Shown here piece by piece: positions 57,727 through 59,256 of a stretch of DNA of 64,000 bases. The first letter of the stretch is position 1. Each line of letters begins with the position of its first letter. A program made the translations under genes and the position numbers. Under the pieces are notes generated by a model, which saw nothing but the letters and a program-made list of their open reading frames with translations, was not told the origin of the DNA and made no database searches. Source of the DNA: Lutibacter sp. (GTDB taxonomy: Bacteria > Bacteroidota > Bacteroidia > Flavobacteriales > Flavobacteriaceae); the NCBI GenBank assembly GCA_002733665.1, contig NVWM01000002.1, forward strand, positions 62,001 through 126,000. Direction: 5' to 3'.

Positions 57727-58140
57727 TTAATTGAATTTTCTATCATGCCGATTTTTCAAATAACCTATCTGAATAGGAATCATAATGGCTAGAAATATAA
57801 AGCCATACATAGCCGTATTAGAAACATTTAAATTATAAGAAGTTTCAAATGATATAGCATTCGTGAATTTGCTCAAGTCAATATTAGATAAATATCCTTC
57901 ATTCATATTAACTCCTGTATTAAGAAGAAATATAGTCAAAGTAATAATTCCTGCAGAAATTAATAACCAAACTTTTTTAGAAATCAAAGGCTCAAAGGCA
58001 CGTTTTGCTTTTTTAAGTTCTAATGTGTTAATTGCATCCATAACATTCCCTGAAAAATCAGCCGAAGGCTTTTCAATAGGTGTTTCTTTTATCATTTTAT
58101 TGATAAAATCGTCTAATAAGTGGTTGTCTTTATCGTTCAT
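57727..58140 (-). CDS. Putative anti-sigma factor
   Basis: 137 residues from the ATG at 58140 (an earlier Met in frame lies within the sigma gene). The N-terminal part (IEKPSADFSGNVMDAI) resembles cytoplasmic regions of Bacteroidota anti-sigma partners. Two membrane helices follow, at about 60-77 and 108-128, with a short loop between. It overlaps the sigma-factor gene by 11 bp, the usual coupling for a sigma/anti-sigma pair. No zinc-binding HxxxCxxC motif is seen. The call rests on context. Confidence 0.7.
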   Translation of the reverse strand: MNDKDNHLLDDFINKMIKETPIEKPSADFSGNVMDAINTLELKKAKRAFEPLISKKVWLLISAGIITLTIFLLNTGVNMNEGYLSNIDLSKFTNAISFETSYNLNVSNTAMYGFIFLAIMIPIQIGYLKNRHDRKFN

Positions 58141-58711
58141 AACTGCTATATATTTCTGGTTCAACAGACTCTTTAAATATACTAAATAATTTCTTTCGTG
58201 CTCGGAATAGTTTTACTTTCACATTTCCTTCATTCACAGAAACTATATCTACTATTTCTTTAAGGCTCAATTCTTCAAAATAAAACAGATGCATAATAAT
58301 TCGTTCATCTTCAGGTAATTTATCCATGCATTCTTTTATAATAATACTTCTTTCTTTATTTTCAAGGCTATCAAAAATGTTTTCCACTTGAAAAATCTCA
58401 TTTGAAGTGATGTCATTTATTTCGACATCATTATTATACTTTGAATTCTTTTTAATTCTGTCAAGACATGTATTATAGGCAATTCTATAAATCCAAGTTG
58501 AAAATTTTGATTCTCCATTAAATTTTGACAATGACTTATATACCTTTATAAAAGTGTCTTGAGAAACCTCTTCAGATTCTTCTCGATGCTTCAACATTTT
58601 CAATGCTAGCGCAAATACCATATTTTGGTATCTCTCTACAATAATACCAAAGGAATTAGAATCACCTTTAAGTATTTTCTTTATATAATAATCGTCATCA
58701 TTATTTGCCAT
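58130..58711 (-). CDS. ECF-type RNA polymerase sigma factor
   Basis: 193 residues from the ATG at 58711; a GTG one codon earlier is less likely. Region 2 has NMVFALALKMLKHREESEEVSQDTFIKVYKSL and the FSTWIYRIAYNTCLDRIKK signature; region 4 has PEDERIIMHLFYFEELSLKEIVDIVSVNEGNVKVKLFRARKKL. It directs RNA polymerase to stress or envelope genes. The upstream promoter has the same sequence and spacing as that of the divergent DUF6249 gene, pointing to autoregulation. Confidence 0.95.
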   Translation of the reverse strand: MANNDDDYYIKKILKGDSNSFGIIVERYQNMVFALALKMLKHREESEEVSQDTFIKVYKSLSKFNGESKFSTWIYRIAYNTCLDRIKKNSKYNNDVEINDITSNEIFQVENIFDSLENKERSIIIKECMDKLPEDERIIMHLFYFEELSLKEIVDIVSVNEGNVKVKLFRARKKLFSIFKESVEPEIYSSYER

Positions 58712-58720
58712 CACATATAA

Positions 58721-58747
58721 GACTGTTATATATTAAAAAAGGTTACA
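58721..58747 (-). promoter_or_regulatory. ECF-type promoter for the sigma-factor gene
   Basis: Minus strand: TGTAACC (58747-58741), 17 bases, GTC (58723-58721). The GTC ends only 9 bases before the ATG at 58711, so the leader is very short. Same motif and spacing as on the plus strand. TGTAAC-N17-aGTC is close to the B. subtilis SigX-type TGTAAC-N17-CGWC pattern. Confidence 0.75.
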
Positions 58748-58780
58748 TATATATTGAAGAAAAAAATAATTAACTTTTTC

Positions 58781-58807
58781 TGTAACCTTATTCTCTCGAA
58801 CAAAGTC
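58781..58807 (+). promoter_or_regulatory. ECF-type promoter for the DUF6249 gene
   Basis: Plus strand: TGTAACC (58781-58787), 17 bases, GTC (58805-58807); 50 bases before the ATG at 58858. Mirror copy of the minus-strand site 34 bp away. Confidence 0.75.
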
Positions 58808-58857: not shown

Positions 58858-59202
58858 ATGGGATCAGAAGTAATTATAGTACCAATCATTTTCGGAATAC
58901 TCTTCGGAATCGTTTATTTATTCTTTTCAACAAGGAATAAAGAAAGAATGGCGCTAATCGAAAAAGGAATTGGAGCAGAAATATTTAATAAAGGAAATCG
59001 TCAAACAGCTCCTGTATGGAAAGTCTTTATCTTAAATCTTGCATTATTATTAATGGGAATAGGATTAGGAATTTTAGTAGCATCAATTATTGATCAAGTA
59101 ACAGACTTAGATAGTGATTCTATTTATCCAGGAATTATCTTCTTAACAGCAGGTGCAGGTTTATTTGCTGGATTTAAAATGACAAACAATTTAGACAAGT
59201 AA
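58858..59202 (+). CDS. DUF6249 family membrane protein
   Basis: 114 residues. Helix at about 5-23 (IIVPIIFGILFGIVYLFF), the cytoplasmic stretch STRNKERMALIEKGI typical of the family, then helices at about 52-75 and 90-106. Function unknown. It is the likely target of the adjacent ECF factor, sharing its promoter motif. In other Bacteroidota the gene often lies beside an ECF factor as I recall. A strong terminator follows. Confidence 0.8.
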   Translation: MGSEVIIVPIIFGILFGIVYLFFSTRNKERMALIEKGIGAEIFNKGNRQTAPVWKVFILNLALLLMGIGLGILVASIIDQVTDLDSDSIYPGIIFLTAGAGLFAGFKMTNNLDK

Positions 59203-59225
59203 CCAATCTTTATATTGCCGTCACG

Positions 59226-59256
59226 AAAAGCGCTCCAAATTTGGAGCGCTTTTTTA
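59226..59256. terminator. Terminator between DUF6249 gene and nuclease gene
   Basis: Perfect stem AAAAGCGCTCCAAA / TTTGGAGCGCTTTT with a T run; between convergent genes. Confidence 0.9.

Follow-up and report, generated by a model that had tools for sequence, protein, structure and literature searches.

The ECF sigma locus and its 146-bp gap

We analysed a stretch of 64,000 nucleotides of Lutibacter sp. (the window), in which two start codons, at 58711 on the reverse strand and at 58858 on the forward strand, bound a gap of 146 bp. On one side of the gap lie the genes of an ECF sigma factor and a presumed anti-sigma factor, and on the other lies the gene of a membrane protein of the DUF6249 family. 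The features are listed in Table 1.

Table 1. Features of the locus in the window, and a dispersed near-repeat word elsewhere in the same genome
Feature	Position	Strand	Remarks
Presumed anti-sigma factor gene, 137 aa	57727-58140	-	11-nt overlap with the sigma gene
ECF sigma factor gene, 193 aa, regions 2 and 4	58130-58711	-	9 nt between the -10 GTC and its ATG
Predicted ECF promoter of the sigma/anti-sigma operon	58721-58747	-	-35 TGTAACC 58741-58747, N17, -10 GTC 58721-58723
A+T-rich (88%) stretch of 33 bp between the facing -35 boxes	58748-58780		possible shared upstream element
Predicted ECF promoter of DUF6249	58781-58807	+	-35 TGTAACC 58781-58787, N17, -10 GTC 58805-58807
Gene of DUF6249 (PF19762) membrane protein, 114 aa	58858-59202	+	50 nt between its -10 GTC and the start
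Terminator-like hairpin with T tail, 3' of DUF6249	59225-59254	+	one found; shuffles mean 0.5
TGTCACCTTGAGCGCAGTCGAAAGGTC-type sites, own genome	C5:117635-117661, C6:46682-46708, C12:57437-57463, C30:91141-91167, C33:37717-37743, C33:47179-47205		

The sigma protein matched the Pfam families Sigma70_r2 (25-92) and Sigma70_r4_2 (125-176, both in a 194-residue frame) and nothing else. It also passed the cut-off of the superfamily model sigma70-ECF, and the possession of regions 2 and 4 alone places it among the ECF (group IV) factors. The overlapping gene downstream of it, which is kept in most relatives, encodes a membrane protein for which two hydrophobic helices are predicted, and we infer that this protein is the inhibitor of the sigma factor. 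The window copy matched no Pfam family and no recognised anti-sigma domain; one distant member matched RseA_N (E 0.0027), the sole family match among the members. The structural model of the window copy, made from an input lacking the initial Met, had a mean pLDDT of 71.6 and a pTM of 0.40 and was judged too weak for a fold search. The model of the DUF6249 protein had a predicted three-helix form (mean pLDDT 80.1, pTM 0.49), for which no PDB match reached E 0.001 (best 2.3), and a profile search against solved structures gave none up to E 0.1. Since a terminator-like hairpin sits after the gene, DUF6249 is probably transcribed alone.

The first-pass annotation had described two identical promoter boxes, TGTAACC-N17-GTC, on opposite strands of the gap, and we found both at the positions and with the spacing that it gave. 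AAC in the -35 box and GT in the -10 box are present on both sides. The base before GT is A, that is, the -10 box in the window is AGTC, while CGTC is found in most other genera of the family. The description of the arrangement as a mirror image holds for the boxes, but not for the two 17-nt spacers, which differ. The same annotation had considered that such a pair would hardly arise by chance. When the window was shuffled with its dinucleotides kept, the looser N14-20 form occurred on average 0.30 times per shuffle and at least twice in 6 of 100 shuffles, so that the pair is only moderately rare and the chance argument alone is weaker than claimed, although two matches would additionally need divergent placement in one gap. 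The genome of the window (2,706,449 bases in 37 contigs, 92.5% complete) has two copies of the exact N17 form, both in this gap; elsewhere the N16 form occurs once and the N18 form twice. Conservation is a much stronger argument than chance, and it is the sequence comparison that carries the case.

Conservation of the boxes in the family and the phylum

Among 119 genomes searched, sigma matches (E up to 1e-25) were present in 45 and DUF6249 matches (E up to 1e-5) in 43. Both genes were found together in 42 genomes; three had only a weak sigma match (31-34% identity), and one had DUF6249 only. The lone DUF6249 gene (L145 1392-1787, relative G048) had no matching box in the 4.3 kb analysed around it.

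We compared 30 sigma loci from genomes of the family, one of which is the window. The exact motif faced both genes in 27 of them, the window included. In the three exceptions DUF6249 lies away from the sigma gene, by about 1.1 kb (L136), 2.7 kb (L135) and 3.2 kb (L134), and the sigma boxes read TGTAACC-N16-GTC, CGTAACC-N17-GTC and CGTAACA-N17-GTC. The separated DUF6249 genes all keep the exact motif, and therefore the box travels with the genes and not merely with the gap. It had been stated at the outset that the reading would fall if neither box was conserved in relatives; both boxes are conserved down to a sigma identity of 38%. In the genus alignment (six sequences including the window), the sigma side shows no variation in GTAACC, GTC and the ATG, and the DUF6249 side shows none in GGTTACA and GAC. 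The six close relatives are metagenome assemblies labelled Flavobacteriaceae, Lutibacter, Urechidicola or Bacteroidetes. In the whole set of relatives, with three genomes counted twice and weak and collinear copies included, an upstream box matching at least 10 of 11 positions was present at 43/47 DUF6249 genes and 37/50 sigma genes, and at none in either reversed control.

Two loci differ in gene content. In relative G070 (L144 999-1714) a tandem pair of DUF6249 copies is divergent from the sigma gene. In relative G019 (L156 1848-2135) the sigma ORF has only about 96 codons, beside an intact DUF6249 gene, an intact anti-sigma gene and two intact boxes; this ORF is either a broken gene or an assembly error.

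DUF6249 was present in 85 of 296 genomes of the phylum, and an ECF sigma gene lay nearby in 30/30 of the phylum loci examined, in 27 of which the profile built from Flavobacteriaceae recovered the DUF6249 gene. The DUF6249 boxes reached at least 10/11 in 15 of these 27 and at least 9 in 22 (reversed upstream sequence, 0 and 3), and the sigma boxes did so in 13 and 18 of 30 loci, respectively (control, 0 and 3). The departures are of two kinds, namely lineages with a TGAAACC box and loci that lack a clear one (L157, L158, L170, L175, L176, L179 and L183); in L170, L175, L179 and L183 this holds on either side.

After removal of duplicates, 71 loci had both genes, of which 61 were divergent, 10 collinear and none convergent. 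Both boxes scored at least 8/11 in 59 of the 61 divergent loci, a score that can be reached by chance (shuffles average about 7.3). L116 and L175 fell below it on one side, and in L116 the DUF6249 start was probably mischosen by the script. Duplicate genomes were counted once in the 59-locus set (L117, L126 and L130 skipped). We regard the two boxes of the gap as genuine and as retained through long periods of evolution, and the compact module as widespread in the Bacteroidota.

In all 10 collinear loci (L107, L137, L146, L147, L148, L151, L154, L164, L167 and L169) DUF6249 is the first gene, preceded by a box of at least 9, which scored 10 or 11 in seven of them. No close box was found before the sigma gene in these loci, where the best score was 6-8, except for a score of 9 in L169 at a distance of 219 nt. 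The box thus stands before the first gene alone, which is the pattern expected from autoregulation of an operon.

The single box of the collinear loci also bears on another explanation, namely that a separate DNA-binding regulator uses the inverted TGTAACC words as its operator and that they are not ECF promoters. Two inverted seven-base words do face each other across an A+T-rich stretch, as an operator might. The distance between the words, however, ranges from 0 to more than 3,000 bp, with 33 of the 58 measured loci at 21-33 bp. What is fixed instead is the spacing to GTC: in 55 of 59 divergent loci both sides have 16 nt before the four-base -10 box. We therefore give an operator hardly any credence.

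Joint variation of the boxes and extent of the regulon

Across the 59 divergent loci the two boxes of a gap resemble each other. The third -35 base agreed between them in 57 loci (shuffle mean 43.3), the first two -10 bases in 48 (shuffle mean 20.1) and the spacer in 57 (shuffle mean 53.2). Because such shuffles ignore kinship, we traced the changes along a tree built from the sigma factors of 56 loci (110 branches), from which L170, L179 and L183, whose boxes are doubtful, were excluded although they belong to the 59. At -10 base 2 (GTC to ATC) each box changed three times, on the same three branches (L105, L171 and L184). At -10 base 1 the sigma box changed 16 times and the DUF6249 box 11 times; eight branches were shared, seven of them with the identical change (hypergeometric 4e-6), and one-sided changes numbered eight in the sigma box and three in the DUF6249 box. 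At -35 base 3 there was one shared change, which gave the TGAAACC clade of six. These comparisons indicate that the two boxes tend to vary together across the phylum.

We looked for residues of the sigma factor that track these changes. For the -10 change to CATC, no column was common to all three lineages and rare elsewhere. Residues tracking TGAAACC exist, and they are a lead only, because the TGAAACC loci form one clade on the tree. At the recognition-helix stretch this clade has PLGTVK (two sequences shown), where GNVKV, NNVKV and the like are found elsewhere. SigW of Bacillus subtilis reads TGAAAC, and the alignment to SigW has PVGTVK at this stretch.

The joint variation is of importance in judging whether the promoters are real but read by another ECF sigma factor, or by several with overlapping specificity. 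ECF promoters share AAC/CGT-like boxes (an excerpt of PMC8103513), and the genome has other ECF-like sigma candidates that may have the same specificity (27 scored at first look, one match at E 1e-25). On the other hand, the co-occurrence of sigma and DUF6249, the constant presence of an ECF sigma gene in the phylum loci, and the co-variation of the sigma's own box with that of the target speak against this. In addition, 16 family genomes without a sigma match had no excess of the motif, since TGTAACC-N16-CGTC occurred 7 times against 24 for the reversed pattern. Reading by another factor is thus quite improbable, and we infer that the sigma factor encoded beside the gap would read both boxes.

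The first-pass annotation had also proposed a self-contained regulon. In 21 sigma-positive genomes of the family, TGTAACC-N16-CGTC had 53 matches, of which 37 belonged to the module and 16 did not, while the reversed pattern, a rough control because its base order differs, had 35. The one-mismatch pattern occurred 66 times in the own genome against 136 reversed, and 59 against 132 in one relative; only 10 of the 66 lay outside ORFs of at least 90 aa, and two of these were the module sites. Eight of the 16 non-module exact sites were checked, and all were placed, seven within ORFs and one between genes, where the distance to a start is 195 nt. Among 16 sites checked in the genus, 13 were placed (11 within ORFs, two intergenic), and the loci of the other three were cut by a contig end. 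Sites outside the module do not exceed reversed ones, and so there is no sign of further targets at exact or one-mismatch stringency; at this level the scan favours a small regulon and we rejected a wider one, with degenerate sites and the missing 7-8% of the genome lying outside its reach.

A broad regulon with degenerate sites, in which the two exact sites are merely the strongest promoters, is consequently somewhat unlikely, yet searches with the exact consensus are blind to degenerate sites. One exact TGTAACC-N17-GTC in relative G006 (L263 2882-2908) lies about 9-10 nt before an ORF of 164 aa and partly overlaps the end of another ORF. The 164-aa ORF may be an additional target in that one genome.

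The near-repeat word TGTCACCTTGAGCGCAGTCGAAAGGTC and its variants are dispersed in the own genome outside the window (Table 1), and the word also occurs once in relative G010. It is one mismatch from the ECF pattern but apparently an unrelated repeat.

A predicted switch and its relation to known systems

The position of the sigma box suggests an unusual message. In published ECF complexes the third base of the -10 box lies at about -10 or -9 (excerpts of PMC8103513 and PMC6411747): the cytosine of the RpoE -10 box is at -10 (PMC8103513, in part) and the GTT of SigH at -11 to -9 (PMC6411747, in part). By analogy, the C of GTC here may be that base. With 9 nt between GTC and the sigma ATG, the leader is therefore predicted to be 0-1 nt long. 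With start codons chosen by script, the distance from the sigma box to the ATG was 9-15 nt in 49 of the 59 divergent loci, 3 nt in L171, whose start is uncertain, and 17-150 nt in nine, which include the TGAAACC clade (L161, L177, L181, L182 and L186); the distance from the DUF6249 box to its start was at least 25 nt in all, with a median of 46. The box position agrees with the earlier suggestion of an almost leaderless message, and we predict that the sigma message is leaderless or nearly so, probably starting at its AUG or a few nucleotides from it. This would be unusual in the phylum, in two studied members of which such short leaders are a minority: about 3.7% of leaders are below 10 nt in B. 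thetaiotaomicron (PMC7366714, in part), and 87% of predicted leaders exceed 10 nt in F. johnsoniae (PMC6847099, in part).

Taken together, the gap very probably holds two back-to-back promoters for the adjoining ECF sigma factor, by which the factor would regulate itself and switch on DUF6249. The first-pass annotation had read the boxes as the promoter of this factor, with autoregulation and DUF6249 as a direct target, and this reading gains support from boxes that are conserved, follow the genes and co-vary, and from the single box of the collinear loci. We propose the following mechanism. As is general for ECF factors, an envelope signal would free the sigma factor from its membrane-anchored partner. 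The freed factor would use both promoters, amplifying its own sigma/anti-sigma operon by positive feedback and inducing DUF6249, a small membrane protein that may act at the membrane as an effector or as a part of the feedback.

We also consider, as a speculation that is unlikely to hold in full, that the module is a closed one-target circuit in much of the Bacteroidota, in which DUF6249 belongs to a sensing or feedback loop and is not a conventional effector, each promoter affects the other because two polymerases share the A+T-rich stretch, and the sigma message is truly leaderless. If it is truly leaderless, its translation would not depend on the A-rich leaders by which most flavobacterial genes are tuned.

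These findings would tie DUF6249, a family of unknown function, to a defined stress-type switch across the phylum. Given the likely promoter of the sigma factor, its regulon, its signal and the role of DUF6249 become testable, and the joint changes of the sigma factor and its two promoters offer a natural data set for the way in which ECF factors recognise DNA.

The module resembles autoregulated ECF sigma/anti-sigma modules as described in part in PMC8103513: the sigma factor has regions 2 and 4 only, a presumed anti-sigma gene overlaps it downstream, and its predicted own promoter has an AAC-type -35 and a GT-type -10 box. It differs from them in its single dedicated divergent target, DUF6249, with a matching box of its own, in the -10 AGTC (CGTC in most other genera of the family), and in the predicted leaderless or nearly leaderless sigma message.

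Among solved sequences, B. subtilis SigW (PDB 5wuq) is the closest to the window sigma (E 6e-27). The window sigma scored 132.6 bits, below the cut-off of 209 of the SigW equivalog (NF007223). In type the window boxes match the SigW promoter, TGAAAC-N16-CGTA, whereas the third -35 base here is T, and A takes its place only in one clade of relatives.

Within the Bacteroidota, the EcfO-Reo and Das/Dma pairs of Bacteroides and Phocaeicola, which have a role in envelope stress, likewise consist of an ECF sigma gene adjoining an anti-sigma gene (excerpts of PMC9308784, PMC13114119 and PMC13088901). According to these excerpts their anti-sigma proteins span from the cytoplasm to an outer-membrane beta-barrel, whereas the presumed anti-sigma factor here has 137 aa, and the EcfO regulon includes NigD genes, whereas the target here is DUF6249.

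In the literature searched, DUF6249 was mentioned only in work on bean kinases and was not linked to this promoter; work on ECF classification may include the group and its motif. The same literature, with the papers on the EcfO promoter and on ECF classification outside its scope, contained no TGTAAC motif with an ECF sigma factor in Bacteroidetes or Flavobacterium. The autoregulated ECF sigma/anti-sigma module is of an already known kind, and the new part seems to be DUF6249 as its dedicated, co-varying target.
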